Assembly (NCBI RefSeq): GCF_000485595.1
Contig: NW_014577731.1
Location: forward strand, 130,367 to 171,209
DNA length: 40,843 bases
Source of the DNA: Priapulus caudatus
Lineage: Eukaryota; Priapulida; Priapulimorpha; Priapulimorphida; Priapulidae
Reading direction: 5' to 3'
Shown: positions 13,017 to 36,655 of the stretch, piece after piece
Layout of the letters: every line of letters starts with the position of its first letter
Numbering within the stretch: the stretch's first letter is position 1
Program-made: the position numbers and the translations under genes
Notes under the pieces: generated by a model
Seen by the model: only the letters and a program-made list of their open reading frames with translations
The model's database searches: none
What the model was told of the DNA's origin: nothing

Positions 13017-13023
13017 GTATGTT

Positions 13024-13056
13024 CAAGAGCGTATAAAGAAGATTTATACGCTCTTG
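13024..13056. mobile_element. 33-bp CAAGAGC palindrome with 7-bp target duplication (copy 1)
   Basis: A perfect 14-bp stem (CAAGAGCGTATAAA and its inverse) surrounds a 5-base loop. GTATGTT occurs directly on both sides (13017-13023 and 13057-13063). The duplication stops exactly at the palindrome ends. The structure is directly seen; mobility is inferred from the target duplication and the related copies elsewhere. Confidence 0.85.
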
Positions 13057-13063
13057 GTATGTT

Positions 13064-14350
13064 CTACTGTGGTCAATTGATTTCATCCCTACCATTTTTA
13101 GCATGGATGCTAGCAACTTCATCTTCATTTGTATGCAAATGTGCACTGAAATATATTCATGCATGGATGATGAATTATCTCATATATTATTATGTGCCTA
13201 TTATGTTAGTTGAAGCCAGTAGTTTTATTTTATATTATAGCCAAGATGCTGCACACATATCAACAAGCGGGGTTATTCAAGTTTGTTTGACATCATGCAG
13301 ATGTCAGTAATATATTGATATGCATAGGTAAAATCGCCAGTTAATGTACTGATGTGGACAAAAATGGCGTGGCATGGAGATTAAAATCGTGTTTCTACCC
13401 ACTAATATATATATATAGTAATTTCCATTACCGACTTTTGATAGTCCATCTGTATGTGTAGCGTCTTCATAGGGCCAGTGATAGTGCGTGGGTAATATTT
13501 ATAATGCGAAGTTGTTATGCAAAGTTATTATAGTACACTAATAGCTTACTTTAACTGACGGTTTTCAGTGTTTAAACAGCATAAATTCTTTGCAAACAGA
13601 CGAGTAGATTTTGTGCGCATTTCTGTAATTTAGTTGTACATGAGCATCATGAGCGAGTTGTGCATATTGTTACTGTTATTGACAAATTGTATGTCATATT
13701 ATTAAAATGCTTTTATCTTTAATATATTCTTTCTTAAAGAATTTGGGGTCGTACTTACATAGATTTGTAGATGTCAGCTATATATTTAATCAATTTCCAA
13801 AAATCAATGACACCATTTTTAAGATGACCAATGACAGAATGACAGGGCTGGTCTAATGGATCTCTTACTGCTCTATTGCCGCGGCTACTGTCACTGCCCA
13901 CCGCTACCTAGCTACTACTGTTGCTATTGATGAACAGTGATAGTACGGTGTACATGCTCCTATTGTTGATATTGTTTAAACTCAATGCTCTGTATAATGC
14001 AGGTCGCGGTTTTTTCTCAGCAGTGGGCAATTAATACAGAATGAGTCGACTAGGAGTCAAGAAATCTACACAATATCATACACAAAATGCATGTCATACA
14101 AAGAATGATTTTAAGAGCTTTTTAACGTATAATGTGAATAAGCCTCTACTAGTCAGAGAAAATCACTCCTTTGTTGACACTGAAAAAACCCAAGTTTAGC
14201 TCTTGGTTAAAAGGTCACCACAGCATCAGTAAAAAGTACAAGTACATTTTAGATCAGTGGAAGCTTTATCATTAGATGAGCTGACCTACGTCCTCTCCTC
14301 TGTATTGACCCACTGCCTATTCACCTTTGCCTGTTGCATGCTAAAGATAC
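13064..14350. other. Intergenic, nothing recognised
   Basis: AT-rich convergent intergenic DNA with a short (TA)n at about 13408. No exon or RNA gene was recognised. Confidence 0.4.
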
Positions 14351-14357
14351 ATGCTAT

Positions 14358-14391
14358 CAAGAGCATATTAAGCATACTTAATACGCTCTTG
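14358..14391. mobile_element. 34-bp CAAGAGC palindrome with 7-bp target duplication (copy 2)
   Basis: A 15-bp stem with one mismatch (CAAGAGCATATTAAG against CAAGAGCGTATTAAG) surrounds the loop CATA. ATGCTAT is present on both sides, at 14351-14357 and 14392-14398. It shares its terminal heptamer with the copies at 13024, 31368, 34811 and 36338. Confidence 0.85.
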
Positions 14392-14398
14392 ATGCTAT

Positions 14399-15076
14399 CT
14401 TCTCACAATAACTCGGTACAAGATTTTATAGAGTCACATTTCCCCTTCCGCTCCATGATCGTTGCCTCTTGACCTCCCTTCGGCCCATGTGCAGTCTTTC
14501 GGGATGAATTTTTATGTGCTGAATATGAAGGCTGTAGGTGACTCCGTTTATAGACGTTCTGCTGTTTTTTATCTACAGAGAGATGGATGCCGTTTCTATG
14601 CTACTTGCTGCATAAGGCTATGTCAGATGAGCTAATATAAATAACACTATACAGAGATTGTATTATGGAAGTTCCAAACAGGAAATATGTGCATAACATG
14701 CGCCTCTCCTGTTGTGAAATTTACTACTAATGAAAGCATGACAATTAAAATTTAATATCTCTACATGTGAATTTTATTCATCGGGGAATTATAATGATAG
14801 TTACAGTTAAGAAACCAAGTTCAAAATCGGCCCAACGTGGTTATAAGATACACATAACTCGAGTCCCCTTATAACTTCTAACAACATGAGATTGAAATTA
14901 TTTTAGTTTGCTTGCTAATAATTGATTTATATGCGAACCAGTTAAATAACAACCAACCTGGTTTTCTTATGCAAATTACAAATTAAATACTTAATCTCTG
15001 TTTTTATGTTCAAATAAATCCCCTGGCAACCAGAAAGTGATTGTTTATCCAATGGTTGGTCATTTGTAGCTGGTCC
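14399..15076 (-). other. PELP1 3' UTR and flank
   Basis: Downstream of the PELP1 stop on the - strand. It contains a candidate poly(A) signal at 14773-14778. A word GCTATGTCAGATGAGCTAA near 14612 recurs at about 17825 and marks a dispersed repeat. No other feature was recognised. Confidence 0.4.
14773..14778 (-). terminator. Candidate poly(A) signal of PELP1
   Basis: TTTATT on the + strand reads AATAAA on the PELP1 strand, about 300 bases after its stop codon. The distance is ordinary for an animal 3' UTR. The signal is common in AT-rich DNA, so this is suggestive only. Confidence 0.4.
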
Positions 15077-15151
15077 TTACTGAACTACCTCATCTTCTGA
15101 GTCAGGTCTGGCATCAACAAAGTCATGAATCATTACATCAGATACCTCTTC
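15077..15151 (-). CDS. PELP1: PELP1 exon 16: conserved C-terminal peptide
   Basis: The acceptor CTTTTCTTGCAG leads into EEVSDVMIHDFVDARPDSEDE and then VVQ stop. The HDFVDARPDSEDE core parallels the human PELP1 end ADFIDCPPDDE. The match to the very end of human PELP1, after a long unalignable tail, suggests this peptide has its own conserved partner. Phase 0 joins it exactly to exon 15. Confidence 0.9.
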   Translation of the reverse strand, partial: EEVSDVMIHDFVDARPDSEDEVVQ

Positions 15152-18100
15152 CTGCAAGAAAAGCGTATAGAATTAAAACCAAGTGAAAGAACTTTCGTCA
15201 TAACATGAATGATTGCACACAACACAAACTTACAGATTAAAACTTACACTTTTTATTCTAGAATCAGCATTGCCTTCCATCTCGCTCGCCTTTCTCTTCA
15301 AGGGGCTAGCATGTACGGAGGGTGGTTCAGACTCTGTGTCAGCCAGTGTGATTAGCTCAATGCTTGAATTGTCTTCTGCTCGTGTGCACACTGATGCTGG
15401 GAGATCACCACTTCTTTCACTATGTTGGAAAAGTTTAGCTTGCGTTGCATGACCTTCCTCCATTGATAACAAGACTGAAGATGCCAAAGCCTTGTCTTCA
15501 TCATCCGAAACATCAAAAACTTCTATAACTTCATCTCCCACAAACTCATTCGTCGCCCGATCAGATTCTGTCGCTGGGATACTCAACTGCATTTGTTCAG
15601 CTTCATTTCGTGCAGCTAAAGCATTGCCTTCCATTATTGGTGAATATTTCCTCATAGGTGCCTTGATAATGGCATCTCCCATGTCATCACGTGTGCAACT
15701 ATCTGGTCCGGATGATGACACAATCGCGTCGTGGTCATCCTTCCGCTCCGTGGAGATACACACGTCACTGGAACTTGGGAGACCGCCACCATCCACATAG
15801 TCACTAGTCCCGGGATGCCATATTTCCTTGAATGGACTTATTTCGTGCTCTTGTTTTCCAGATGGTACTGGCAATGCCTGCTCCACTGCTGTTTGTTTGT
15901 GCTTGCTAACTGGAGACTGTGCTGGTCGGGTAGGCTTCTCGATCAACATGGGTAATTGTAAGGATGGCACTCGAGGATGAATAATGGCTTCACAAGCTGT
16001 TAGAGCTTCTATACAAAAGCTGGAAACCTATAAAAATAAATGCGCTGGTTTAGCTTGGCAGAACTTAGATAGCCCTTAAAGTGGATAAACCTCGCAACAA
16101 AAAGCCTATATATACACCTATTGTGAGCATACTTGCAGTATGCAAACATCACGAAATGTTCTCATTGAGCCAGAAATGTGCTCTGAAGATTACTATTTTC
16201 AATTACCCCGTCGGACTCGGTTTTGGCAAAAATAGACAAATAAATGATGTTGAGTGAAGTGTCAGAGGATGCTAAATAGTAGCCCTATGCTAGCGCAAAT
16301 AGTTCCTGGAACGAAAACACTATATTTGTTTCCTGATTGCATATGTAATGTAGATAACATGTGATTTAAACAAATTTCACAATTTCGTACCGAGTAAACA
16401 TCGAACAATAAAGTATAACATGTGTTATCACAGAAAAGAACTGTTAATGCAGCACAACGTTCGCGCGGTTGTGTACCGGATGTGTAAATACTGTAAACAT
16501 CCTGTGGTGCTACTTTCGTTTAGATTTTATGAAGAAATGTTGTGAAAGTAGCAATACAAATAAGTTGTAGTGACTTTTTGCAACATAGGCAAGCTCAGAG
16601 TAGGTATATATATATGCATCTAGCTGGGACGTTTATCCACTAAAAGACATAAAACAAGTGCCGCATAGCGACAGCGCTCATCTAACGTCTACTGCGGTGA
16701 CTCTGTGGTGGAGTGGTGGGATTTCTTAAGTAAACCTGTAGTCCAACTTGTTTTCACGATACATCGCAACACATGGAGTGCACAGGGATGGTATCCAGGA
16801 ACCTTCTCAAAAGAATGTTCGTTTGGGAATCTGTTATGAAAGTGCCCACGTAGATGGCGCCGTACGTTTAAGTGTCTTCAGATTAAGATGGACAGCTGCC
16901 CATTCATACGTAGCCAACAACTATCTCAAGCCAGAAATAGGTAAAACTCATAAACCATTACGCTATACGCAAGCCTACAGGCTGCGCAAATTAGAGAGCT
17001 GCCACCTTTACCCCATTAAGGCAAACATTCCACAGGTATCCAAACATGGCGAGTGGCATACGTTACATGTAACACTATCTGACACACAGAATCCATATAA
17101 TTATTAACGAGTTAGGGAGCCTAAAACTTCTTTAAACCAAATTAGCTTTGCAAATTTCACTGTGACATTGTTCGCCTCATACATCCAGGCATGTATAGAT
17201 TCTACTACAAATCCGGCAGTCAAATTCTTTTAACAGACAGGCAACAAAGCCCATTTTAACCCTCCTCTTGATGGTCAAAAGTTTAGTCCGACAACTGTAC
17301 TCTTCGCATGTCAGCAGAGAGGGACATTTCATGGTCCTCTCAATTAAAAGCTATAACAAAATGCTAGGTCACGCTGAAACAAAAAAGTTTTTCCAACTCG
17401 CTCCGCAAGACGATGTCCTCAGAAATGTCTAAATCTGCCCTGCTGCCCATTTGCGCTTGACCATGTGACCATCAATTTCGGCACAGTGAGTGGTTTTCCT
17501 ACATAGATGCCTGATACACACCGACTAGCAAAGCTAGGTGATGCGTTTAGATTTGGTGCGGCAATCTGCATTTCCTCCCTATACTAAGTTTAAGGAGTAA
17601 TGTTCCCCCTTCTTTTAGCACCTCTTGACCTTTGAACTTGACCCCACAGCTTCGACACACGTCCCCCAATCACGTTTTGACAGATCCCCCCAATGTGCCG
17701 AATATCGTGACCGTACGTCGAGCGTTAAGATTTGTCGCCCAACGTTGACGACGGCGGACGGACGACGGACGCCCGGACGGACGCCCGGACGGACGATCAT
17801 GCGATTCTACAAGCTGCATCTGACTATGTCAGATGAGCTAAAGACACTATATCACATGAGATTTTTTACTTGGCACCAAAAAAATATTTAGCCAAGACTA
17901 TCAAATATGGTGCATATATAATAAATATATATAATAAAATATAATAATAAAACAATAAAACATATAATAAGTACCATCAAGGTAAGTCAACTTGTATGAA
18001 AACAATGAATTCAATATTTAAATTGAAATAAAAAAAGCAACACAAACAAGTTGACACATGCAAATTTAAATCTGCTATATTTGTGAAACTATCAATTGCC

Positions 18101-21100
18101 ATTGCCAAAATGTATTTGTGTTTACTGTTTTAACTGTTTTACTGTTTTCACTGTCTGGTAGCAAGAATAATATCATTGCCACAACATAGTTCTGGCACTG
18201 AGCAAGTTTCATGCTATTCAGCAAATATGACACATATAAAGCCACTATTAATTTAGAAAAATGCACTTACTCTACAATAACACAGAAGTACATATTACCA
18301 CGAACATGTCTACGTAACTGCAAAGATATAGTATATTGAATAGTTATCTTCATGATAACACCAAATATCAGCATTTTAATTTCTTATAGATATATATACC
18401 CTGTAGCTTAAAATCTAGTTGAACGATTTCAGGACTAGACACAAGTCTGCATTAGGCCAACTGCAACAGGCTTCGCCGTCTGAGAAAACCACGGGGTCTA
18501 AAAACGGCCCCATCATTTACTCAACGGGGCTGATTTTTTTCTAGACGTGACTGATATTTTTTAACTGATGAATTATGTAATAAAAGCTTTGTACATTCAT
18601 ATGTACTGTTACTATGCTTATTCACTACTACTTGGTATATGAACTTATAGCAACCAGTGTTCTTTCTCGATTCGACTTTCGTTTTCGATTCTCGGAATCC
18701 CAAAATTTGAGAGAAGTCGGCAAAAAAGCCCCGTGGACACCGGAGACGGGGCTGTTTACGGGGCTTGGGCCGATCGGCCCCGTGAAAAGGCGAAGCCTGC
18801 TGCGAGGGGTCATATAGTACTCTATGAAACACATGACATTAGAGCTGTACGTCACCTCAATGTTCCCATCATTCTGGCCCGTGGCAAACAGTCTCAGAGC
18901 AACGTGTAGTGGAGGTGGCAATCTAGGATGAGGTACGAGCATGAAGCTAAGAAGCACGTGGTATAGCTCCTTCCTACAAGACGGACATGCTGCGTATGTA
19001 ACGTGCTTCTTGCCCTGCTGAATCTCCAAGAGTGTGTGGATGATCAGCTCATGGAGTGCCTGTTTGTAAACAGACAGAGTAACACTATTAAAACTAATAT
19101 TATTAGATTATTATTATGATTAGAGGTAACACTATAACACTATTAACACTCTTATTATCAGAGATTAGTATTATTATTATTATTATTAGAGGTAACACTT
19201 TTAACACTATTAACACTACAGTCCGGCCTCCTTTATCTCGCCACGTCGGGACCGGCACCCATCCGGATATGGGATTTGGCCGGATATGAGAGTTATGCTC
19301 AAATACAGCATTTCTATGCAGTTCAGTAGGGGTTATGCATGTTATAATGTATTTACTCGTTGCTACGATTGATTATTTGTAACAAACTGTCGTGTTTTAT
19401 GGTTTATATAAAATGGAAATAAAATGAAATAAAACAGAAATTTTACCACTTCGGTTTGTTTTTTTCTTTTGTGCCGAGATCTAGGGCTGTAACAATCGAT
19501 ACACTCGCGGCGTTGTATGCCTAGGCCTGTTACATGTGATCGGCAGCGGTGCCTTTGATTGAAGTACGGGGCTCGATCGATCGCGAGTGCGTAGCGAGGT
19601 AGCATCGTTTCACTAACGTCCGACAGTAAGAGTTGTTCGTTAACGAACAAAAGTTGTACGGAGGCATAGCGGACAACACACACACGCACGCACGCACGCA
19701 CACACATTTTTGTTCATTCATATAGTATACAATGTATATATCTTTTATTCCTTGGTAGTTTTTACAGCATCAACAAGTGAGTATGTATTCGTGAAATAAT
19801 CGTATATTTATACAAGTACATGGGCGTTTGCTCTTACGGTAAGTGCGTTTGTTTTGTGCATGTGATAGCTGTGCGCTCTTATGATAATCAATGTGTGAGA
19901 ATCATTGGTGCATCGCGTGAGTTTTGAGCGAGCTTTGAGCGAGATTTTTAGGTGGAAATGAATGAAAAAACATAGAACATAAACTGCGAGATCGCGGCCG
20001 GTTAATAGAGATTTCCGGATAACGGATGGCCGGATAAAGGAGGTCGGATTGCATTATTATTAGAGATTACTATTATTATTATTATTATTATTAGAGGTAA
20101 CACCTTTAACACTATTATTATTAGATTATTATGATGATTAGAGGTAACACTATAACACCATTATTATTACAGTCCTTGTGTTTTAAGGTGCGCGATCGCG
20201 CTGGCGCGCCTCGATCGATCCGGAGAAGTGCGAAAAAACGCGCATCTAAGCATTATCAAAACGCGCACCTCGCTTCGTGTTTTGTTTTTTATTAATTCAA
20301 CTTATAAACTCGAAGATAAACGCAAACGGTTGTAAACGTCACGGACATTGCAGGAAGTCGGTTCACATGTTTATAACGACAGTTGTAACGTTTATACCAA
20401 CAGCAGTCTTTAACATCAATTCATCCGCTCATCATTTATTTATCACCGATGAAAGCTTGGCTTATCGTTGACTCTGCTATTCTTCCGTTACACACTGAAC
20501 CGTATACACACCTCTCGACCATCGTAACTCACAAAGCCTACTGCCTGCGTTGACTGCTTTGCACCCGAACCCACCCAAAACTAAAACCGTCCGGCCTATC
20601 ATACGCGAGCCATACATGATGAATATGACTGTTACTGTATTCAATTGCTACAGCAGATCGATACTGGTGATGAAGATGCAGCTGACAATGAAATTTAAAG
20701 AGCCTGATTAAGGTTTTTAGTGAATTTTTATTGCAAAACATGTATGTTTTCTTGAAATGAAACTGAAATACCTCAAATGGACAAAAATGCAAACAAGTGA
20801 CTGAATGATTATGATGTTGCAAATACTATTAAAGTTTTAATAGTCTGCTTTGAGTGTTGTTCCTTTTTGACTAAACATGCTAAATGTGTGATTCAAGTTA
20901 TCCATCAATATGTTCAAGAACTGATATTTTGTTAGATGAAAAAAAATCACCTAAAAAATGTCCAAATTAAGAGTACAAATGCAGAGCAAATTTTTATCCC
21001 AAAATGCTGGAAATAGCATTTCATGAAGTCTAGATTTCAAATTTTTTCCGGGGGGGCATGCGGAACCCCCCTAGTTTGCCTCGTGACCTGCGGGCACTCG

Positions 21101-24100: not shown

Positions 24101-27100
24101 AATATATTAGCAAACTTCATAAATTTACCACAGAAGGTTACTTCTTTTTTTTAAACCACGAGGACCAATGGTCTGACTGCTGTCTAGTCAAAATCCAGAG
24201 AGACAATATTTCATTCAAAGTAAATACCAAAAATTATATTCACATTGATATTAGCCACGTTCACACGCAGCAAGAAATTCGGTATTTAGCACAAGGCAAA
24301 ATGCGCGGTCCAAGAAATACGGTATCTAAACAGATCCGGTATTTGATGTAAATACGCGGCTTCCCAGACCCCGAATAATTTGCCGTGCTTGAGAAATACC
24401 GGATCTCTTGGACCGCGCATTTCCTCGTGTGAACGCTAAATACCGTATTTCTGAAGCCACGTATTTTATAGACTGGTCCGCACTCGACAGTTCCAGTGTA
24501 ATGCGAGTGGAACTGTCGAGCGCGGACCAGTCTACGTATTTTATCGACAGTTGGTGCGCATTGCATTGTTTATTTCTCATTGTTCGCTTGATTGTTACTA
24601 AAGCAGCTCGCAGCTCGCAAATACGGCATTTCTGGAGCCGCGAATCAGTGTGTAAACGCTCGGCCGCGTATTTGTCTCAGATTCGGTATTTCGCAAATAC
24701 CGTATTTCTGGAGCCGCGAATCAGCGTGTGAACGCTCGGCCGCGTATTTGTCTCAGATTCGGTATTTCGCAAATACCGTATTTCATAAATACGAGGTCTC
24801 GTGTGAATGAGGCTAGTATTTAGGATCATGAACACATCATAGCAGCAGTACCAGATGTGAGGCGTTGATCGAGTGCACTCGACAAATCAAAGCAAGGATG
24901 TTATCATGTGGCACGCACACAACAACTGCTGTCATGTCACCCCTGAAACATTACAAGTGCAATGATAAAAATGTTTTAGAGGCAGTCATTAATAAATATT
25001 ATATGGTTATTATAATGCTAACTATCATCCAAAAAAAGAGCAGATACTTGGTAGTATCAGGGTTCTCCCCAGGCCTTGTGGAGTAAAGAGCATGTGTGTA
25101 TGCGAGGAGGATGGCAGACATAAAAACAAGCAGAAAGCATATAACTGACCTTAGCAAATCACCTAAAATAACAATCACTAAATTAGCCATACATATTATC
25201 AGGAGTAAATAAAAACTTTTTTTCAATTCACTCCTGGTATTAATTATTATATTATGTATTAGAACTCACACTAATAGCTGCTGAAGACATGTTCCAAGAG
25301 TGCAAAACAAACTACTTGTATGAAAATGTTCTCCAATCAATAGGCTCTGGTCAAAAATTCCAGATTGTGATGAAGTTCCACCTATTTGTAAAATGTTAAA
25401 GTTGATTTAAAACAACATTAGCGAAAGATGGGACTCTATAGAAATATGTATATATATAATTTAACTCTCTCTTATATATCATACTGTCTCTCTTTCTATC
25501 GCGATGTGTATCACAATAAGTATCGTATTGTGACCTACGTATCGAGATACGTATCGTATCAAGACCCTAGTGTATCGTTACACCTCTAAATATAAGTGGA
25601 GACCAGCGGATATTACCCACTTCTTTTTCCCCAAAATTGTTTTTTGAGGAATATTTCACTTATTATATAATAAAAGTCAATTTTTTAAGGTTTTCACATA
25701 ACAAACGTTATTTTACGGAGTACATTACTTCCATGTCTTGCAGTATCACTGGATATCTTATCATCTTGGAGAAATACACATTCATACCTGTGTTAAAGTC
25801 AACGTATAACAAGTCCAATGCATCATTCATGGAGCCCAAAACCTTTTCACAGATCTCCATCCATGATGTAGTGTAGTTGATACCATGGTGGCCACTAGAA
25901 CCACACTGAGGCAACAGAGCAAAGCACTCACTAAGTGCTTTAACCTGTAAAGAAAAGGACTATTTATGGACAGCTACAGTATTATTATGTAATAAATTAT
26001 GTCAGCCACAACATTGTTTCATTTATAATCATCATCATAATTAAGTATCATCCCCAAGTCACTACAGAAACCACCAGGAATTACATAGCAGTGAACAAGT
26101 AGCACAACACCAGCTTACAAATACATTGACTGGGGCTTATATAAGTACAGTAACACGTGCCATGCGCTACGAAAACTCGAATTAACAAATTACGTATGTG
26201 CAAATTTATACAAGCCGATCGGCTTGTATAAATTTGCACATACGTAATTTGTAAATTATGACCACAACCTGAAATACGATAACTCACCCATACGTAATCA
26301 TAAATTAAACTTGGGATACAAAGCATATTGATTCGCTCTTACGGAATGGTTTAAAATATTGAGAGGGTTGTTTTACGAGAAAAGTGGCATGCTCAATCAC
26401 CGTAAATAAAATTAATGTAATAATGTCTATGCTATGAATATAGTCTGTCATAAACTTTGCATGTACTTACATTTGTCAACTCAGCAGCATTAGTGGACAT
26501 TAGGTCTACAAGTAGAGATTGAATCTTGCTCTGGAAATAATTACATGTATGCTATGATAATTATAACATGTATAGAAAAATTTCAATCAATTATATTTCT
26601 CCAATTAAAGCTATATATATAGTTAATACTACTATTTACACAGACTGAATGGAAACACTGTAATACTGATTTACGCATGCTAGCATATATCTACATAATC
26701 AGGTGTCGAAATTTCCCAAAGTGACCCACTAGCCAGCATGACTATTAAGAGAAAAGGAATAAGGTATGTGGAGGAGCCATGTTACAAACTGATTGCAGTA
26801 TTCTCCACAATACCCTGATAGGTTTTGCCTCAGTTTTCCCATCCCTACTTAGCCTAGTCTTGGTCTAGCAGAAAAAGCGATCATTTCGACTGCTGGCCAT
26901 AGTACACAGTTCAGTAAAACAAGTCATATGTTCACCACTAAATAATCTAGTTTTTCAGAAATGAAAACAAATGGTAATATACTAATCTACATATCAGCAG
27001 AATGCCCTCCTTCTAATACCTTCATGGGGCCGCAGGAACTGGGAAAGTATCTCATGCAAGCATACAAACACTTCCACGATCCAACTGAACTCTGCAATAA

Positions 27101-30100
27101 TATCAAAATATCAACAGATTTTCTTTACACTATTAAAAAGGGTTGTCTGCACTTTACTTATGAAAGAAGTTCACACATTGCAAATCAGATGTATGGCTTT
27201 TATTAGCACTAAAACCCTTCAAATTTTGTAATGTGACCATGTATAGCAAATAGCTAGCATTTCAACGTAAATGGAATAGTGATATACCTGTAGTCTGGTT
27301 ACGAGAAGCACAGGGATGAGTTGTGGAATCACTGAGATGGCAACCTGCTGAACCAGCTCATGTTCACCAGGCACCTGCTGTAGTATTTCAGCCACTACCA
27401 GAGATGCTAACTCTTTCACAGCTACTGATCCACCCGACTGAAATACGGATGTACATATATATTCACCTATATCATCATAAATTATATTTGTATATACACA
27501 TGCATATATACAGCTACAGTATGATGCAAGATTGTTTTAACAAGCTCAATTAAACATACATGCATGTACTTAATATTCATACTGGAATAAGTGTATACAA
27601 TAAAAGGAAAAGAATTATGTACCATTTGCAAATAGTTTCAATGTATAAGAAATTGCATATGAGCCAAAATATGTCCAGGATTCATTCCCACAAAGGAATG
27701 CATTTTTCCAGGACTTATAGAAGATCCATTTTCTAGGACTAGGGAGTATGGTTATATATCATTGTATCATATTGTATCGTATTGTATTGTATCTTATTGT
27801 ATTTTAATACTTGGAAATTACAGTATTTTAACAGCTTAACATCTCCAAGATTATTTTCTATATGAAAATGACTGTTGTCAGATATACAATACATGTCCTT
27901 GTATTTGAATTAAATGGAAAAAATATTTCATACAAATAAAATAAAATTGGTACCTCCTATCATCTTGTAAACTTGAAATTATTATTGGCACAGTGAATGA
28001 GGACACAATAGAAACATGCTTAATTTCCAAAAATCTTTAGAATTAAACATAGTAATAGCCTATTTTTCTATTATATTTTTAGGAACATATAGCCTGCTTT
28101 CCGGGACCTTTCAGACTAAGAAATTGAGATTTTAGAATAATCAATTACAGGACCTTTCATGTATTGCAAGACCAATATGAAACATGTATATATGATTTTC
28201 ATGGTGTACATAACAAACCTGCAACAACTGCAGCATTCTGTGCAGCCACCCAGTGCAATGCTGAATGAAAATTTCACCATTGCACTGCTGAACTAACTGA
28301 TGGAGAAACACCAGTCCTCTCTCGCTGTAAAACATTATAAAAAATCATTAGTTGCAAATCAAACTATCAAAAGTGCTAATTGTAGACAGAATATATACAT
28401 TATTAGATGTCCACTCCCATACACTTACATACATGTGACAGTATTAAGTTAACATGTACAGTAATTGTATCATTCAATGTTAATCCTGTACCAGATCTAT
28501 CCGCTAACTGTCAACATACTTTCGCTCATAGGGTCTATGTCCCCCAGGGTACTGCCGGAACGTACCCTGGTAACTATCTGATATGGTTAGGGTTAGGGTT
28601 AGGGAGTAGGTGTAGGCAACTACCTAGACTCGTTAGTGGAGTAGGCGAAGTACGGTCCGGTATATTAGATAGTACCAGGGTACGTTCCGGCAGTACCCTG
28701 GGGGACATAGACCCTCTCAGCCATACTTTCACTCCATTAAATAATATGAAATGGCTGAGCCAGGTGAAGTATAAATATGAAACCACGAATACACCTATAA
28801 GTAATGCTGAAGGGGTCGTTGTCATATATGTAGTACCCGAGGTGTCGGCGAGTATGCCGCCTATGCCTACTCCCTAACCCTAACTAAATGTTCTGCTTAC
28901 CGGGAATTCCTAGAATTTATAGAAGAATTGACCTTTGTTATCCAATCAGAAATTGAGCCTTGTTCCTGAAATAAAACATACTGTATGGTCAATGGACATG
29001 TATACGTCTCAGTTCAAAGTGCATGAATTGTATCAGTGCCATATATATTTTATACACTCACGCACGCACACACACACACACATATAACATAGTTTGAGCA
29101 ACAGCAAAATGTAAGTAAATGTATACCACCAGAACTTGTCTACAGTACATGAAGAAAGCCAACACTTAAATGCACTGCTGTGGACCCCGTTTCTTTTGTA
29201 GTAATGGTGGCACGCACTATTATATATTGTATACAATTTGGCAAATTAGGACGAGTTTAAGTAAGTTTGAACTAAGAATGGCGAACATTTTTATAGTACC
29301 TTGGATTGTATTAATTGACTGCCACATTGTGACTTGTGTGTCAAAAATATTGTAATAGTTGACATCTCTGTTAAAATCCACTGTCACGCAATTAATTTCA
29401 GATTTTTTGTCAAACTGAGCTAGGCAAAACTGGTGGTCTTTTCATAAGGTTTCTTTTATCTTATTCATCTCATAAAATAGGCCATAAGTTGGTGAATACA
29501 TTACCCAGGAACACCCAGTTACCATGAGCAAACCAGTGGTTCATTGATTTGTTTGAGCTATTACGTGAAACTCTATCTCTTAATTTTTATGCATAGGTGT
29601 AGCTCAGTAAAATATCAAGATGACACATTTTCCCAAACTATTTTACTTTACTATTAAGCCTTGCCAATTCTGCAGAATATGAATTTCGGCAGATGTCGAC
29701 AAGTGGCATAACTTATTAGGTAGGTTGTACACATGACATAACACACTACCAATTAAGGTTTGAGGTGTCTTTAAATTAATGACGATTTCTTGGAGCTGTC
29801 TACCCAAGAATGAGTTTATAGGGGTGGCCAAGGCGATGGCATTGTTTGTTTTTAATACTACAATAATTTTATACAGGGCCGGATTTACACATTGTGAGGC
29901 CCTGATTAGGCAATTGTTAACAGGGAATAAGGCTGGGTAACAACTGAACTTGGCAATAACGCTGCCAAAATGCACAACAAATTCGTGTGGAGGAGGGCTG
30001 CTCGTGTAGAAATTTAAAAGGCCGTGGCTCCTCGACCGGTAACCGATCACCAATGTTCCATGGCTAAACAACCGGTTAACAGGATGGACCAATCAACAGC

Positions 30101-30870
30101 GAGCTTTCCTTGCACGCCGAACACTATACTAGTTGCTACGACAGTGGTGCTGCCAATTCAATTTGTTGTTTTATCAGAACACTATCAACACATTTTTTGT
30201 AATGAGCACTATTAATTATTCATTTTATTGTGAACCAATAATAAAACTAGTTTAAACAGTACATTTAGCAGCGGTTACAGTGATTTTAGTAGCCTCCCTT
30301 CCCTTCCCTTCGCGAGATGTGTCCGGTCGAGGAGCCACAGCGAATTTAAAAATATGCCGAAATCAGTATTATCAAAAGTAGCCCTAGTAAAGTAGTAACT
30401 AGTATTAGTAAGTAGTATTTATATCTACTTCTGGTATTATTCAAGCTGAGATTTTGAGCGGCCCCTTCAGACCCAGGCTTCAGACTGCGCGAGGGGCTGA
30501 AGTTGTACCTTCTAAGGCTTCTTTAGCTTATGCCTAAATCCGGCCCTGTTTTTGTAACATCGTCTGTGTATCTACCTATGCAATTAATTATATTCATACT
30601 AATTACTATCATAATCATTATCATATCATATGACATATATTTTTGAACCGTCCGTTCGTTGTATTATTAATATTAATAATTATAATATTAATATTATTGA
30701 TTTGTATTATAAGCAATAATTTTTTGCTTAAGTACACTAACATCGTTTAAACACTCATATTCACGGAGGATCCTAGAAAGCTGGTTGTCAGAGTTTCGGC
30801 TATTCTGGTCATCAGTATTAAATTTGCCTAGCATAACCGTAAACACATGCTTTCTCATGGCGGCTGCCAT
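15077..30870 (-). CDS. PELP1: PELP1 (RIX1-type rixosome scaffold) homologue, 16 exons, 824 aa
   Basis: PELP1 is the scaffold of the rixosome/5FMC complex with TEX10, WDR18, LAS1L and SENP3. It supports 60S subunit maturation in nucleolus and nucleoplasm and, in vertebrates, also acts as a nuclear-receptor coregulator. Exons in transcript order: 30736-30870, 28901-28965, 28219-28324, 27288-27437, 26471-26530, 25788-25944, 25270-25381, 24852-24942, 23976-24064, 23520-23621, 22179-22317, 21889-22042, 21456-21511, 18856-19059, 15248-16027, 15077-15151. All introns are GT..AG, all 15 phases agree, and the coding length is 2475 bases. Residue order follows human PELP1 from the RIX1 region to the conserved C-terminal DF(I/V)D motif. 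It is shorter than human PELP1 because the proline- and glutamate-rich expansions are absent. The start ATG at 30868-30870 has a strong context (AAGATGG) and is the first ATG in the frame. Exon 1 joining is the least certain part. Confidence 0.93.
15248..16027 (-). CDS. PELP1: PELP1 exon 15: acidic tail with two SUMO-interaction-like motifs (residues 541-800)
   Basis: The exon opens VSSFCIEALTACEAIIHPRVP, colinear with human VSSFCSEALVTC..THPRVPPL, and then becomes a low-complexity hydrophilic tail. VIEVFDVSDDED at residues 707-718 sits where human PELP1 has TVININSSDEEE, and IELITLADTESE at about 763-774 is a second hydrophobic core followed by acidic residues. Both look like SUMO-interaction motifs. 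PLKRK at 782-786 is a probable nuclear localisation signal. The long poly-glutamate and proline-rich blocks of human PELP1 are missing. Acceptor TTTTTATAG and donor AGT|GTAAGT are clear, both phase 0. Confidence 0.92.
17600..17840. repeat. Dispersed repeat with GGACG array
   Basis: Starts CCTCTTGACCTTTGAACTTGACC and ends with a (CGGACGGACGCC)n run and CTATGTCAGATGAGCTAAAG. The terminal words recur at about 14612, and a related TCCGTTCGTCTGTCCGTC run is at 5060. This is probably a short interspersed or satellite-derived family; the type is undetermined. Confidence 0.55.
18463..18803. mobile_element. 341-bp inverted-repeat element in PELP1 intron 14
   Basis: The ends are GCAACAGGCTTCGCC (left) and the inverse of GCAGCAGGCTTCGCC (right), with one mismatch in 15. 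Near both ends are internal CGGGGC/GCCCCG runs that pair. No target duplication was found. Probable MITE, lying just downstream of exon 14 in the transcript. Confidence 0.6.
18856..23621 (-). CDS. PELP1: PELP1 exons 10-14: second helical region with basic linker (residues 322-540)
   Basis: Exons 10 and 11 give the segment equivalent to human LKVYAILELW..CGASAG (here ETVYAVLADWLIVTGAVSG). Exon 12 holds a lysine-rich linker, SSSQKKGKKKRKGGG (about residue 413-427), in the position of the human PKKLKLD basic motif; it may serve as a nuclear localisation signal. Exon 13 is only 56 bases (residues 454-472, RLLIYSSGMLIKPKHHQ) and was found because exons 12 and 14 leave a gap against human; its phases (1 in, 0 out) fit exactly. 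Exon 14 encodes CRKELYHVLLSFML and PPPLHVAL, nearly matching the human NUC202 region. The intron between exons 13 and 14 was enlarged by two transposons. Confidence 0.9.
19076..19218. repeat. TTA-rich satellite, segment 1
   Basis: Irregular tandem units of ATTATTAGAGGTAACACT and ATTAACACT. The same satellite continues at 20052-20169 and 21177-21217, so it was split by two insertions. It lies in PELP1 intron 13. Confidence 0.75.
19219..20051. mobile_element. 833-bp pogo/Tigger-like non-autonomous element
   Basis: The ends are CAGTCCGGCCTCCTTTATC (left, preceded by TA) and the inverse CAATCCGACCTCCTTTATC (right), 17 of 19 identical. CCGGATA words cluster inside both ends. A CAGT start, a CTCC..TATC pattern and a TA flank are typical of pogo/Tigger elements; the right flank is CA, not TA, so one side has mutated. 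The longest internal frame is not transposase-like. Inserted into the TTA satellite. Confidence 0.65.
20070..20169. repeat. TTA-rich satellite, segment 2
   Basis: Same ATTATTAGAGGTAACACC/T units as at 19076. This piece lies between the two inserted elements. Confidence 0.7.
20170..21176. mobile_element. 1007-bp element with perfect 15-bp inverted ends
   Basis: CAGTCCTTGTGTTTT at the left end is exactly inverted at 21162-21176. The left flank is TA and the right is TT. The first CAGTCC is shared with the 19219 element, but the inner sequence differs. The interior has GC-rich ATCGATCG-type ends, a G-run motif near 21045 and no transposase frame. Tc1/mariner or pogo type is inference. Confidence 0.7.
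23976..30870 (-). CDS. PELP1: PELP1 exons 1-9: N-terminal RIX1 helical-repeat region (residues 1-322)
   Basis: Exon 1 (residues 1-45) starts MAAAMRKHVF and is the least conserved. Exon 3 carries the most diagnostic match, EIFIQHCTGWLHRMLQLLQ, against the human segment ELFQQHCVSWLRSIQQVLQ. Exon 6 has SECFALLPQCG followed by a conserved tryptophan, as in the human CYSRLPSLG region. Exon 7 ends in LQQLL at residues 257-261, the only clear LXXLL box I found in the protein. Exon 8 (NILALICRV) and exon 9 (VLPKIHCSAFKLLRALIL) match human residues in order, and the two together agree in spacing with human, which fixed the acceptor at 24064. The family is all-helical armadillo-like; that fold is family knowledge, not visible directly. 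Confidence 0.9.
24252..24815. mobile_element. 564-bp element of nested palindromes, TTCACACG ends
   Basis: The left end TAGCCACGTTCACACG is matched by the inverse of TAGCCTCATTCACACG at the right end. Inside, CGTGTGAACGCT recurs at about 24426, 24650 and 24725, and AAATACGGTATTT-like words repeat throughout. A near-duplicate of about 65 bases (CGCAAATACC..GAGCCGCGAATCAG) occurs twice between 24600 and 24760. No coding potential. It lies in PELP1 intron 8. Confidence 0.65.
24470..24533. repeat. 64-base hairpin inside the nested-palindrome element
   Basis: Arms 24470-24494 and 24509-24533 are inverse copies with one mismatch in 25 (start AGACTGGTCCGC), with a 14-base loop. A stable cruciform or RNA hairpin is possible. 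Confidence 0.8.
26185..26252. repeat. Perfect 68-bp palindrome with no loop
   Basis: Every base pairs outwards from the centre CCGA|TCGG (between 26218 and 26219), 34 pairs without a mismatch, ending ACAAATTACG...CGTAATTTGT. The flanks are not an obvious direct repeat. It lies in PELP1 intron 5 (transcript order), 250 bases from exon 6. Confidence 0.95.
28524..28721. mobile_element. 198-bp MITE with exact 9-bp target duplication (family A, copy 2)
   Basis: CATACTTTC is present at 28515-28523 and again at 28722-28730. The terminal inverted repeats run about 58 bases (GCTSAKAGGGTCTATGTC, then CCCAGGGTACTGCC, then GGAACGTACCCTGG), nearly perfect. The core is GGTTAGGGTTAGGGTTAGGG and a CCTAGACTCGTTAG segment, as in the copy at 11694. 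A partial relic of the same core in inverse orientation is at about 28835-28885. It sits in PELP1 intron 2. Confidence 0.9.
29874..30548. mobile_element. 675-bp hAT-like non-autonomous element in PELP1 intron 1
   Basis: The ends CAGGGCCGGATTTA and its exact inverse are of the hAT type. The flanking octamers ATTTTATA and TTTTTGTA agree at 6 of 8 positions, as expected for an old 8-bp hAT duplication. Inside, GTGGCTCCTCGACCGG near 30024 is inverted at about 30322. A 149-codon frame on the - strand overlaps it but has no transposase features. Confidence 0.75.
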
Positions 30871-31019
30871 CTTTTGAGGGAAACGCTCGCAGTCGCAGCT
30901 CACCAGGGGCGCTTGTACCGTGTCGGAGTATTTTGACCTCTGACCCACAGACTAGGATCAGAGCTAGGAACAAGGAATACATTGTATATTATTGTGGAGG
31001 AATGTATTATGACTGAGCA

Positions 31020-31366
31020 TATAATAACACATAATGTACATATATGTATATATATATTATTATATTATATATATATATATATATATAATATATATATGAA
31101 TACTACCTAATATGTACAATGTGTTTATAATAACATGCGCTATCAGAGCACGCTATATCCAAGTATATATATATATTACGTACTGAGCTATATAATAAAT
31201 AAATAAATATAACGGTATAGTATTAATATATATATATCTATATTTATTTATTTATTTTATTTTATTTATATATATACTTTATTATATATATATATATATA
31301 TTATATTATCTATATATATATATATATTTTATATATATATATTATATTATAATTATATATATATTA
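31020..31366. repeat. (AT)n-rich field
   Basis: Alternating AT blocks with interspersed TTTATT. It lies upstream of the PELP1 start (about 150-500 bases) and hosts one CAAGAGC palindrome at its edge. Confidence 0.9.
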
Positions 31367-31367
31367 T

Positions 31368-31405
31368 CAAGAGCGTATAAAGAAGGCCTTATTAATACGC
31401 TCTTG
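31368..31405. mobile_element. 38-bp CAAGAGC palindrome with 7-bp target duplication (copy 3)
   Basis: There are two 19-base arms with two mismatches and no loop, centred on AAGG|CCTT. ATATTAT occurs on both sides (31361-31367 and 31406-31412). Because the surroundings are AT-rich, this duplication is weaker evidence alone than those at 14358 and 34811. Confidence 0.8.
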
Positions 31406-31659
31406 ATATTATGCGTATATGAATATATTTGATAATATGATATGATATGATATGATAATATGATAATATTTGGCAGTTATAGGAAATTTGTTTTAATCAT
31501 TTTATATGCACTGAATCTGCTGGCCACTAGCTTCTTTCAAGCATTTGAAAAAGTGTAGATTTCAAAGTTTTATAAATTTTGGAATTTCGAATTTGTTTTA
31601 TTATTGAGGTGGGTATCAAATAGATTATCTTATTACAGGCTCTGTATTCCATGAAATTC

Positions 31660-33930
31660 GCTCGCGTCATCGTAGGTGGTAGCTCTTATACCTCCTCCAA
31701 CCTTCATCCTCCTTCCTCCACCACTCTCTATACCTCCTCCCCACTACCTCTGTACCTTACGTCTCTCTCCTCCGTCACACCATCCTTGCTAACATTCGCA
31801 TATATCTCCCCCTCTTTTCCATCCTCCGTTCCCTCGTCATCCTCCTCGTTCTACCCTTCCCCTATCTCCCCCTCATACTATACCTTATGCTTCTTTTCTC
31901 CGTATCTACAACCGACTTCTCATCCTCCCTTTCCTCTTTATCTACTACGAACCTGCTCTCCTCTCCCTTCATCTACATACCCTCCTCTCCCTTCTCCGTT
32001 ACCTCCTTCTTTTTCCTCTACATCTCCTCGTATTTCTCCGCTTTCTCCTCCTTCTCCTTCGGCTCTTCCTCTCACTTTCTCTTCTTCCTCCTCTACCTCT
32101 TCTCTTCATCCTTCTACCCGTCACATCTACCTTCCTCCTCTCCCCTCTCTCTCTATCTCTTTCTCTCTCTTTCTAAAGAACTATCTCCCACTCCTCAGCC
32201 TCCCTTCCTGCTCCTGCTCTTCCTGCTCCTCTTCTCCTCTCCTCATCTACCCCTCTCTCTACTTTACGTCCTCCCTCCTTTATCGTGTACTCCTTCTCCA
32301 CCCTCCCCTTCCTCCTCCGCCTCCCCATCCCATTCCCCTCCCCCTCTAGCCTTCAAATCCACCCCATCGCCGGTCCCCTCTCCTTTATCTCCTGCTCCTC
32401 CTACTCCTGCTGCTCCTCTTTCTCTACCAACTCATCCTCCTCTACTTCCTCCTTTTCTCCCCTTCACATCTATCTCTCCTCTCCCCTCATTTACCCCTCT
32501 TCATTCTCCCCTTCCTCTCCCCCTTCCCCTCCTCCGCCTTCTTCCCGTCCCCTTCTTCCTCATCTACTGACTCTCCTCCCCTCCTACCCTTCACATATAC
32601 CCCCTCTCTCTCCTCCTAAAGATGAGAACCTAAAGAACCTTCTCCCACTTCTCCACCTCTTCGGCCTGCTCCTCCTTTCCTCGCCTCGCCTACTTCCCTC
32701 CTCTCTCCTTTACTTCCTCCCTCCTCTACCATGTACCTTCTTCTCTACCCTCTCTCTACCCCGCCCCCTGCTCCTCCTTCTTCCCTCATCTGCCTCTCCT
32801 TCTTCCCTCCTCTGCCTCTCCTTCTTTACCTCTTGCTTCTGGTACTCCAGCCGCTCCTCCTGCTCTACCAACTCACCTTCCTCTACTTCTTCCGCTTCTA
32901 CCCATTATATATACCTCTCCTCTTCTTTCATCCTTTACGTATCCCCTCCTCCTCTTCTTCCTCCTCCTCCTTCTTCTCCTCGTCCTCATGCTCCTCCTCT
33001 TCTTACTCCACCTTATCCTCCTCTTCTGCCTTCTGCTCGTCCTTCACCTCTTCCCACGCTTGTCTTTTACTTTCCTCCTCATCCTCCGCCTCCCACTCTT
33101 CTCATCCTCCTCCTCTACTATCTCTCCTCCTCCTCTCCTACCCTTCACATCCAACACCTTCTCTCTTTTCGGCATTACCTCCTCCTGCACCTTCTCATCC
33201 TCCCTCCCTCCCTTCCTCCCCTCTGTCCTCCCTTCTCTTAATATAACCTATGCCTCTCTCCTTCTTTATCCCTATCGCATCATTATCTTTGTCTGCACAA
33301 CCACTCTTTATCTGATACGTATCTCTTTCACCTTTTGCCCTTTCCCCTCTCTTCTTCACCCCACCTCTTTCTCCACCGCCCTCCACTTCTTCCTCCACCG
33401 CTCCCACTCTTCCTTCCACCTTCTCTTCATCTACCCCTCTCATTCTTCTCCTAAAGAATAATCTACCAATCTTCCTCCTCCTCCGCATTCTCCTCTACCT
33501 CTTCCCTCTTCTACCTTGATCCGTTCTCCTCCTGTACGGCTACTCTCTTCCTACTATACCTTATGTCTCTCTCCTCCTCATTCACTACCACTTTATCATT
33601 CACTTTCTCTACCTCCTCCTCTTTCCTTCCCTCCTCCTGCTCCTCCTCTACCACCTTGCTCCTCCTATTATACCTTATGCCTCTCTCCTCCTCGTCTACT
33701 CCCACGTCATTCTTCTCTTTCTCTATCTCTTCCTTTCTCCTTTACATCCTCCCATCATCTCTTCTTTCATTTACCACGTTCCTCCTACCCCTCCTCTTCC
33801 TCTTCCTCCTCCTCCTCCTCCATCGTCTTCGACTCCTCCCCACTTTCTCCTCTGCTACTTTCATCTACCCCCTTTCTCCTCCTAATGAACCATCTCCCCC
33901 TCCTCCTCCTTTAGTCCCTCCCTCCTCCTC
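31660..33930 (+). repeat. 2.3-kb polypyrimidine tract (diverged CT minisatellite)
   Basis: Almost uninterrupted C/T sequence on the + strand. The unit TATACCTTATGCCTCTCTCC recurs with variation (for example near 31880, 33250, 33560 and 33675), so this is a diverged tandem array, not random. Long reading frames in it are serine/proline/leucine low-complexity artefacts. It begins about 0.8 kb upstream of the PELP1 start codon, where the PELP1 strand is polypurine. Confidence 0.85.
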
Positions 33931-34456
33931 TACATCCTCTCCTATGCATGTATACATAGTATTGCCTTTATGATATGGTTACACAAAGGTTTATGTGTAA
34001 CATTAATAGTTTTACTGTAGTGTTTTAGTTTGATAACAATGTTGATACCATGGCCGCAGCTAGCAGCGGCGTTGGGAGGGCGCAGAAAGAACAGTTGTCC
34101 CCAGAGAAATGTAGATTCATTATATGGTCAATAGCTGTCACCTTCCCAGGATACACAACACACGTGGCTTTGCCCCACCCCAGCCAAAATGGGTTAGCTA
34201 CGCTGAATTATTCGCATGATTTAGCTATTGAGAGGCACCTTGAAGTTGAATGTTTAGTGATGACTCTCGTGCGGCGTGGGTTAGGTTAGGTCATGACGAT
34301 AGCTGTTGTTAGCAAGCAGTTAACGCACATATGCTGCTATTATGAGACATTATTATGATACATTCTTTATATATAGTAATAATACAGTTCGTTATTCTGT
34401 GGTAATAATAATGTGTCGACGTTGTGGGGACGGCGTGCGGCCATCGTACCTGTTGT
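33931..34456. other. Intergenic, no supported gene
   Basis: A 79-codon + frame at 34050 starts in a GCC-rich context (ACCATGGCC) but has no family resemblance and no clear donor. Nothing else was recognised. Confidence 0.35.
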
Positions 34457-34556
34457 CTGTCTGTCTGTCCGTCTGTCTATCTCTCTGTCCGTCTGTGTGT
34501 ATGTCTGTCTAACTATCCCTCACTCTTTCTTTCTTTCTCCGTTTGTGTGTGTGTGT

Positions 34557-34595
<39 letters not shown>
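34457..34595. repeat. TCTG/TG/CT microsatellites
   Basis: Runs of (TCTG)n, then (GT)n at about 34543-34560 and (CT)n to 34595. Simple-sequence DNA. Confidence 0.95.
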
Positions 34596-34598
<3 letters not shown>

Positions 34599-34810
34599 CT
34601 TTCTTACAAGCCTTAATTGGCGACGTAGAAACCATGTGTTATATTCAAATACGAATTTGTACGCGCTATCCACCAAGATCGAAAGGCAACTGGATGCGTG
34701 GATGTGGCGATTTAAACGGGGGATTAAATGTATTGTTTTTCCTGTGAATCGGGTAGTTGATGTGTTTGATAGCGTACGTGCTCGTGTTGTTGTCTTTATC
34801 AACATCTTAT

Positions 34811-34850
34811 CAAGAGCGGATAATACCTTATTGTGTATTATTAGCTCTTG
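34811..34850. mobile_element. 40-bp CAAGAGC palindrome with 7-bp target duplication (copy 4)
   Basis: The 16-base arms differ at two positions (CAAGAGCGGATAATAC against CAAGAGCTAATAATAC) around an 8-base loop. ATCTTAT is present on both sides, at 34804-34810 and 34851-34857. It belongs with the 36338 copy to a TAATA subtype. Confidence 0.85.
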
Positions 34851-34857
34851 ATCTTAT

Positions 34858-36150
34858 TCATCTCAGTTGCACATGGTTGAATTTCAAAATGTTTTATACC
34901 TTCCATCTCCAACATTGTATGCATTACAATAGCGTCAAATATAAATGCCCAGCATTAAATTATTTCATTTTCAATTTGGAATCTTGCTTGGACTTGTAAA
35001 GAGCTTGGAGTATGAAATATCGAGGTTACGCAATGTGGGCGAGCAATAGATATTTAGATTACACACATTCCATGAAAGATTATAACACTAGTAATGTTAG
35101 TTACACTTGTTTACTATAACTGTTTTATTTCAATATTCTCGACGCGTGATTTTTGTTCTAACTATTGATACAAGCTTTCGGAAAATATTCGACATAGCTA
35201 GCTTATACAACAGAAAGTAGTTAGCTACACATGCACTGTCTATACACACTAACAACCCCGGTCTCTCGCTCTTCAACTCCTGTCTCTATCTCCAACTCGA
35301 TCCTCTCTCCGTATTATTATAAGTGATATCGGAAAGTCCAGCTGTGTTACATAGGTCATAGAAAAAGGGGGTACAAAATGGCCGAGGCGTGCTTAGGAAA
35401 ATACACGATTAATGTAAACACTCGTGCGTTTTTAGTTTTTGCATTAACACAAACATTACAAAATATCCCAAATGACCACAATCATATTCGTAAATGTTTC
35501 TGTAAACAGAAACGCACCTGTAAATTGAAGTATGATGCTAGTGAAGAGAATTATAGATCAAAAACCTAAACTAGTTCTATCCTAACTATGTTATATACAG
35601 GCAAGTTATACCCCCTCTTATCTGATCTCAATATGGCGGCGGGGACTTTCCGATATGGGCTTATTGGTATCGACCTTGTAGCCGCAGCTAGCATCCCGGC
35701 GATACGCTACATTATACCATTGTTACCGGCGATAATGATATAAATATCTATAAATATATAAATAATAATATAAATATATAATATATATATAATGATATAA
35801 GCTTCATCGTAAACACAGATCCATAGCCCATAGCAATGTTACTAAAATTTTGAATTCGTGGTTTCGCTACGTCGTGGTATAGACCAAACAGTTTCAACAG
35901 CCGTGACTCCAAAGTGACGAGTGACGTAAGTAAACCCCCCTTGCGGGCATATAATATACGGAGCTGCTTTAGCTCGTACGTCACGATTGTGCACTGGACA
36001 CTTAAATACGCCCTCTCTCGGGACTGTCCCTATATGGGCTCGAATTCTTACATATACATCGTTATTATAGCGTACTATGGTGAGTTTGTATATACCGAGG
36101 TATGCATCTGATGTCTAGATGTCATACAAATGCCGGCGAGGCCTCTCGTG
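34858..36150. other. Intergenic, no supported gene
   Basis: Contains ATGGCC- and ATGGCGGC-type starts at 35378 and 35633 and short frames without splice partners. An AT-dinucleotide run lies at about 35740-35795. I see no gene I can defend. Confidence 0.35.
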
Positions 36151-36158
36151 AGCGCGCG

Positions 36159-36162
<4 letters not shown>

Positions 36163-36256
<94 letters not shown>

Positions 36257-36294
36257 TGCGTGCTGCGCGCGTGTGTGTGTGTGTGTGTGTGTGT
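36163..36294. repeat. (GT)n microsatellite with CGTG core
   Basis: About 130 bases of GT repeats, interrupted by a (TGCG)n block at 36238-36263. Simple-sequence DNA. Confidence 0.97.
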
Positions 36295-36337
36295 GGTATT
36301 TCATGTCGTTTTCACTGTAAGGTATGTACATATATAT

Positions 36338-36380
36338 CAAGAGCTAATAAATACCTATAATAATTATTTATTAGCTCTTG
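36338..36380. mobile_element. 43-bp CAAGAGC palindrome (copy 5)
   Basis: A perfect 16-bp stem (CAAGAGCTAATAAATA) surrounds an 11-base loop. The flanks are (AT)n on both sides, so a 6- or 8-bp duplication is equally possible and the length cannot be fixed. Confidence 0.75.
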
Positions 36381-36626
36381 ATATATATATAATCCTCAAT
36401 ATCAACATCAAAACATCGAAAATTGTTTAGGCCTACTTATAATGAAATATCAAGCTTAAACTGAATCTACGGATATATGCACACATAATTACAATACATG
36501 GTGTTAATTTCTGAATACAAACATTCCGGATAAACACTATTTTTATATAATACTATACACATATACATATATCTATATTAAGTCACGAATCTATCTATGC
36601 TTTTAGAGTGAACAAAATAGTACGAT

Positions 36627-36655
36627 CAAGAGCTAACATGCAATACCTATATAAT
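36627..36655. mobile_element. Truncated CAAGAGC element (left part only)
   Basis: CAAGAGCTAAC...AATACCTATA resembles the left half and loop of the 36338 copy. It then stops at CAGTGGCG, which resembles a transposon end. The right arm is not found nearby. Confidence 0.4.

Follow-up and report, generated by a model that had tools for sequence, protein, structure and literature searches.

P transposase cuts one strand 17 bp within the inverted repeat, so that the 17-nt 3' overhangs of each end stay at the donor site (available text of PMC7776569). At excision junctions of the Drosophila element P{wa}, such overhangs give the arrangement duplication-CATGATGAAATAACATA-TATGTTATTTCATCATG-duplication, and the accessible part of PMC5466332 describes blunt joins, trimming and microhomologies, with templated insertions in 24% of wild-type junctions and, in many junctions, loss of most of the remnant sequence via a long microhomology. 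The 7-bp duplications produced by Galileo, another P-superfamily transposon, have the consensus GTAGTAC (excerpt of PMC2775673). Here, we analyzed a family of short palindromes with CAAGAGC...GCTCTTG ends, five of which lie in a 40,843-nt stretch of the genome of Priapulus caudatus (contig NW_014577731.1, positions 130,367 to 171,209; "the window" denotes this whole stretch). We conclude that they are probably scars left when P-superfamily transposons were excised by cuts some 18-20 nt within their ends.

All five palindromes were found with these ends where a preliminary description of the window had placed them (Table 1), and the exact 7-bp direct repeats it listed for four of them were likewise recovered. 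The duplication of the fifth, inside (AT)n, had been called ambiguous; its flanks hold direct repeats of 4, 6 and 8 bp, and one of 7 bp is ruled out. When the 385-Mb genome was searched for CAAGAGC-N(18-34)-GCTCTTG, 953 matches were obtained; the control, the same pattern reversed, gave 11. Flanks were compared for 43 palindromes, i.e. the window copies and those at loci L001-L035, which are not all independent, since a 25-kb stretch contains L008, L009 and L010, whose flank sequence is partly common. An exact 7-bp repeat was present in 28 of these, compared to 0.90 expected from flanks swapped between copies, and repeat lengths of 5, 6 and 8-12 bp were each found in at most three palindromes. 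In L007, L019 and L021, which are composites, the 7-bp repeat lies at the outer limits of the structure, and a further four palindromes (L001, L006, L013 and L014) have it with one mismatch. The remaining eight (L004, L009, L011:104, L015, L027, L031, L033 and window 36338) lacked it, L015 having an 8-bp repeat instead. Duplications of 7 or 8 bp, as in the P superfamily, were thereby found in the form of 28 exact 7-bp cases and a single 8-bp case. The consensus of the 28 exact repeats is ATANTAT, which is symmetric.

The excess of matching 7-bp flanks that the preliminary description had proposed looking for is thus clear, and its claim of independent insertions with target duplications is borne out by exact repeats at differing sites. 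Carriage of all copies inside one larger repeat, named there as a refuting outcome, is excluded for the 43, as their flanks differ. The palindromes are real and mark past insertions. Their density in the window is high, with five copies in 40.8 kb compared to 0.10 expected from the genome mean. Local hopping was considered as a source of these five and rejected, since the 36 listed places on C1-C8 showed no significant clustering (six neighbor gaps below 40 kb, 4.1 expected, P 0.21). In viral contigs, there were no exact matches of the GTATAA form.

Arms were sorted in 55 sequences, namely 50 listed genome matches and the five window copies. After the shared heptamer, they fall into groups with TAATAATACC, TAATAAATACC, G/ATATAAAGAAGG, AGATAAAGAAGG, GTATTAAGAAGG, A/GTATTAAGTATG and G/CCATTAACCCC, into one of which the script forced L001 and L004, although these fit none. 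Examples of 18-20-nt arms are CAAGAGCTAATAATACCT and CAAGAGCGTATAAAGAAGG. The two arms agree within most copies, and copies of the same family are alike up to about nucleotide 17-20, followed by a mostly copy-specific center. With no mismatch allowed, the dyad measured 14-21 nt in 36 sequences, and with one allowed, it did so in 50. No dyad exceeded 21 nt, although the 48-bp maximum of the pattern would permit 24, and longer scars from other scans (52-72 bp) likewise had dyads of at most 21 nt. Six sequences were perfect palindromes, with lengths of 38 bp (four), 40 bp and 42 bp, and 51 of the 55 sequences were distinct up to strand, with differences mostly in the center.

In the mechanism that we propose, a P-superfamily cut-and-paste transposon would insert at an ATANTAT-like site, making a 7-bp duplication. 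At excision, the transposase would cut one strand at the element end and the second strand some 18-20 nt further in; each side of the break would then retain a single-stranded 3' tail with the outer inverted repeat (CAAGAGC...). End joining would link the two tails tail to tail, giving duplication, arm, inverted arm and duplication, with a palindrome about twice as long as a tail. Copy-specific centers would come from trimming, short microhomology or filler copied nearby, and differing arm sequences would reflect differing parent families. Within this reading, we infer the existence of parent elements, a staggered cut and the route of repair. The features by which excision footprints are recognized were all found: the duplication is retained on either side, remnants of the two ends are joined, and the junctions differ from copy to copy, with microhomology or templated filler.

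A prediction was set down before the corresponding search: tails starting CAAGAGCTAAT that anneal at the self-complementary AGCT should leave a 12-bp scar, CAAGAGCTCTTG. The genome search with ATNNTATCAAGAGCTCTTGATNNTAT identified CAAGAGCTCTTG between ATNNTAT sites at four places, compared to none for the reversed control, and the free letters of the two flanks, i.e. of the duplications, were equal at all four.

Templated filler was examined in 43 hand-picked scars, 39 with CAAGAGC ends and four with related ends, of which 22 have centers of at least 6 nt. Long stretches copied from the scar's own arms or flank were identified in five of these 22 centers (shuffle P at most 0.003), with copied lengths of 19 nt in L007, 17 nt in L019, 11 nt each in L021 and L027, and 22 nt in L024. 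The first four repeat 11-19 nt of an arm, and in L019 and L021 the copy extends two bases into the duplication, these bases (AT) being common to most duplications. The scar at L024:4463-4533, of CAGGAGT type with the duplication ATGTTAC, contains TTACCAGGAGTAAGATAATATA, in which 22 nt are identical to the end of the duplication plus the arm; only one base of this copy is truly site-specific, because TTA of the four flank bases is obtainable from a neighboring arm copy. The filler fits repair at the site, short of proof.

Transposase domains of the appropriate kind occur in the genome. The RNase H-like domain of P/THAP9 transposases (PF21787) gave 64 matches, a lower bound according to the search tool and in part pieces of one gene, with a best value of 1.9e-49 and open frames reaching 827 aa. 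None was found in 14 control genomes. Together with the 7-bp duplications and the Galileo-like form of the consensus, these matches speak for a P-superfamily source. A P-like origin, suggested earlier along with a Dada-like one, was a good guess. The Dada superfamily is characterized by 6-7-bp duplications and target-site-specific insertion.

Several observations weigh against excision as the source of the palindromes. Larger elements with the same ends and a transposase, which the preliminary description recommended looking for, did not turn up: the 288 kb read contained no long element that combined CAAGAGC ends with matching 7-bp repeats, and the CAAGAGC arm was absent from the pieces read near the presumed ends of the P-transposase loci C1414 (1.1 and 1.2 kb) and C1603 (0.7 and 0.8 kb), although the true ends may lie outside these pieces. 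One piece held a bare GCTCTTG without arm sequence. The C1414 piece presumably includes part of a THAP exon, judged by look and not by a domain scan, which would place the true end further out. The two loci were accordingly rejected as parents, as judged from these pieces. A 309-bp candidate (L034:5552-5860) was rejected as well, as no duplication flanks it and it does not recur in the genome over its full length; its 34 other matches all fall inside its positions 55-175. Furthermore, 17 of the 22 centers of at least 6 nt displayed no significant copying in the shuffle test, and copying from the site itself, unlike that from the arms, is weakly shown. Three palindrome sequences recur, in 3, 2 and 2 copies, as expected of a mobile hairpin. 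A longer palindrome whose two AGCT copies undergo slippage could yield the same 12-bp product, so that these forms favor end joining without proving it. Finally, the known stagger of the fly P element is 17 nt, and its duplication, like that in zebrafish, is 8 bp, compared to about 19 and 7 here.

The same 288 kb contained a single long CA...TG element (110-9000 bp) with an exact 7-bp repeat, compared to 0-3 in controls, and its interior consists mostly of nested scars. Scars far outnumber such elements in this sequence, which was mostly chosen for holding a palindrome. A lone end at L034:7831 was traced to the end of the locus, where no transposase was seen among the reading frames by eye, a family search not having been run. 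At about positions 72-112 of L034:5552-5860, there is a dispersed hairpin motif (TTAGATACAATAATGTAACCC).

The palindromes could instead be mobile themselves, as the preliminary description held, i.e. minimal non-autonomous elements of back-to-back terminal repeats, moved in trans by a P-like transposase. Such elements would account for the separate exact 7-bp duplications of 28 of the 43 palindromes, for 953 matches in the genome next to few long elements in the sequence read, and for the three identically recurring sequences, and P transposase domains are at hand. Nevertheless, we regard this as unlikely, given that 51 of the 55 sequences are distinct with centers varying between most copies, that some composites repeat their own arms plus a base or two of flank, and that the 12-bp forms have equal duplications. 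Pairing two transposase-bound ends 33-45 bp apart would also be hard on a stiff DNA duplex. What stands of the earlier claim is that the palindromes are insertion marks with 7-bp duplications; that they are the mobile units is probably wrong, in view of their size, centers, filler and 12-bp forms.

A combination, in which the palindromes are both scars and elements, seems to us decidedly unlikely. Here, a scar would keep both complete transposase recognition ends, so that P-like transposases could move it again, and excision debris would now be a self-spreading family of 33-45-bp hairpins. If so, these would be smaller than any mobile DNA that we know of.

Extreme internal deletions, where the gap left by excision is refilled from the sister copy and synthesis halts about 20 nt from each side, are improbable. 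Internally deleted P copies do occur in flies, and the palindromes retain both ends and the duplication, as such products would. Zebrafish P-like copies with deletions of this kind are described as well (available text of PMC7776569). Aborted gap repair should, however, leave a broad range of lengths, yet dyads end at 21 nt, and exact 7-bp repeats flank elements of 110-9000 bp no more often than in controls. Chance or structural palindromes unrelated to transposition, e.g. in cruciform-prone AT-rich DNA, have practically nothing to recommend them beyond the AT-rich surroundings of several copies and the (AT)n location of one, and are refuted by the 953 matches compared to 11 for the reversed control and by the 28 of 43 7-bp repeats compared to 0.9.

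Scars probably also exist with related ends. In 284 kb, 24 CA...TG palindromes 28-110 bp long were flanked by an exact 7-bp repeat, and a shifted control gave none. Of the 24, 19 carry CAAGAGC ends, the feature by which most of the loci had been selected, and five end differently. Among related types are L023:5046-5097 (CAGGAGC ends, duplication ATATATA), L034:3928-3972 (CAGGAGT, ATAATAC) and L020:8873-8917 (CAAGAGT, ATACACT), and in L013 a CAAGAGC scar is nested within a CAGGAGT scar. L017 5897-6154 is a 258-bp element with CAGGAGT-type ends, a repetitive interior of terminal-inverted-repeat-like pieces and flanks matching at 6/7 positions, possibly a scar enlarged by repeated templated filling. 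The window contributes two or three such forms of older appearance, which are included in Table 1.

Table 1. Palindromes of the window read as probable excision scars, and related features; positions are those of the window.
Feature	Position	Strand	Palindrome	Arms and flanks
Putative scar 1	13017..13063	.	33-bp palindrome 13024-13056 between GTATGTT duplications	Left arm 18 nt (CAAGAGCGTATAAAGAAG); right arm 14 nt matched to subfamily
Putative scar 2	14351..14398	.	34-bp palindrome 14358-14391 between ATGCTAT duplications	ATATTAAG on one side, GTATTAAGTATG on the other
Putative scar 3	31361..31412	.	38-bp palindrome 31368-31405 between ATATTAT duplications	Left arm GTATAAAGAAGG; right arm diverged
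Putative scar 4	34804..34857	.	40-bp palindrome 34811-34850 between ATCTTAT duplications	TAATAATACC subfamily, one arm diverged
Putative scar 5	36330..36388	.	43-bp palindrome 36338-36380 inside (AT)n	
Probable older scar, related end family	30366..30440	.	CAAAAGT...ACTTCTG, 61 bp (30373-30433)	Exact 7-bp repeat GTATTAT; arm mismatches 4/14
Probable decayed scar	25193..25243	.	CAGGAGT...ACTCCTG, 37 bp (25200-25236)	Flanks ATATTAT/GTATTAA, 5/7 matching
Possible decayed scar	12227..12268	.	CACGAGT...ACTCCTG, 42 bp	Without direct repeat
Lone CAAGAGCTAACATGCAATACC, remnant or chance	36627..36647	+		No partner end within 70 bp

Other repeats were seen in the same sequences. At 26180-26257 of the window, there is a loop-free 78-bp palindrome that is not of the CAAGAGC type, its 39-nt arms being 97% complementary. 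The region 24250-24815 is, by eye, rich in inverted copies of a AATACGGTATTT-like motif, and a 66-bp palindrome at 24469-24534 is flanked by the 9-bp repeat CGTATTTTA. Palindromes of 59-80 bp with 9-bp direct repeats, at L020 199-278, L025 4616-4674 and L020 9715-9786, are possibly scars or small elements of another superfamily. L008 1596-1635 is a 40-bp CAAGGAGC palindrome with the 8-bp repeat CTTCTACG; another copy of the arm lies close by. A 472-bp element at L015 1816-2287, with identical 24-bp ends starting CACAGGCACTTGG and the 8-bp repeat CATGGAAG, is one that we take to be hAT-like in form. The window also holds an interstitial array of CCCTAA-type telomere-like repeats (982-1200) and, on the minus strand, an open frame of 265 codons (15230-16027), which in our view resembles the end of a PELP1-type protein; it had no match in Pfam or in the protein search.

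If the palindromes are indeed excision scars, the genome would preserve the traces of hundreds of past excisions in legible form. From these, the depth at which P-superfamily transposases cut inside their ends could be measured without experiment, as could the repair of such breaks in an animal germline, in terms of the shares of microhomology and of templated filler, and jumps could be counted per surviving element. The case would also serve as a caution that families of short palindromic repeats with target duplications need not be elements.

Miniature inverted-repeat transposable elements (MITEs) are usually 100-600 bp long, with terminal repeats and a common internal sequence. Like MITEs, the palindromes are non-coding and have terminal inverted repeats, target duplications and many copies; unlike them, they lack an interior, the 55 listed being 33-48 bp long. 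Palindromes in Volvox organelle DNA are likewise short, dispersed and thought to be selfish, but are organellar (available text of PMC2670323). As with THAP9 and the zebrafish P-like transposons, P-superfamily transposase domains are found here outside insects; the zebrafish elements have 13-bp inverted repeats and 8-bp duplications, according to the accessible part of PMC7776569. None of the PF21787 matches could be tied to CAAGAGC ends in the pieces read here. The Galileo consensus has the same symmetric form as ATANTAT (excerpt of PMC2775673), but Galileo itself is long, as are its inverted repeats, and no CAAGAGC-ended equivalent was found in the 288 kb. The open-access literature matches listed contained no report of a natural genome-wide scar family with 18-20-nt arms. 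P excision footprints are already known from Drosophila experiments, and no natural family with hundreds of matches turned up in the papers searched. In layout, the palindromes resemble the P{wa} footprints as described in the available text of PMC5466332, which share both the order duplication, arm, inverted arm, duplication and the centers varied by trimming, microhomology and templated insertion. They differ in having a 17-nt overhang and an 8-bp duplication, compared to arms of about 18-20 nt and 7-bp duplications here, and in coming from one engineered site, where Priapulus presents 953 pattern matches.

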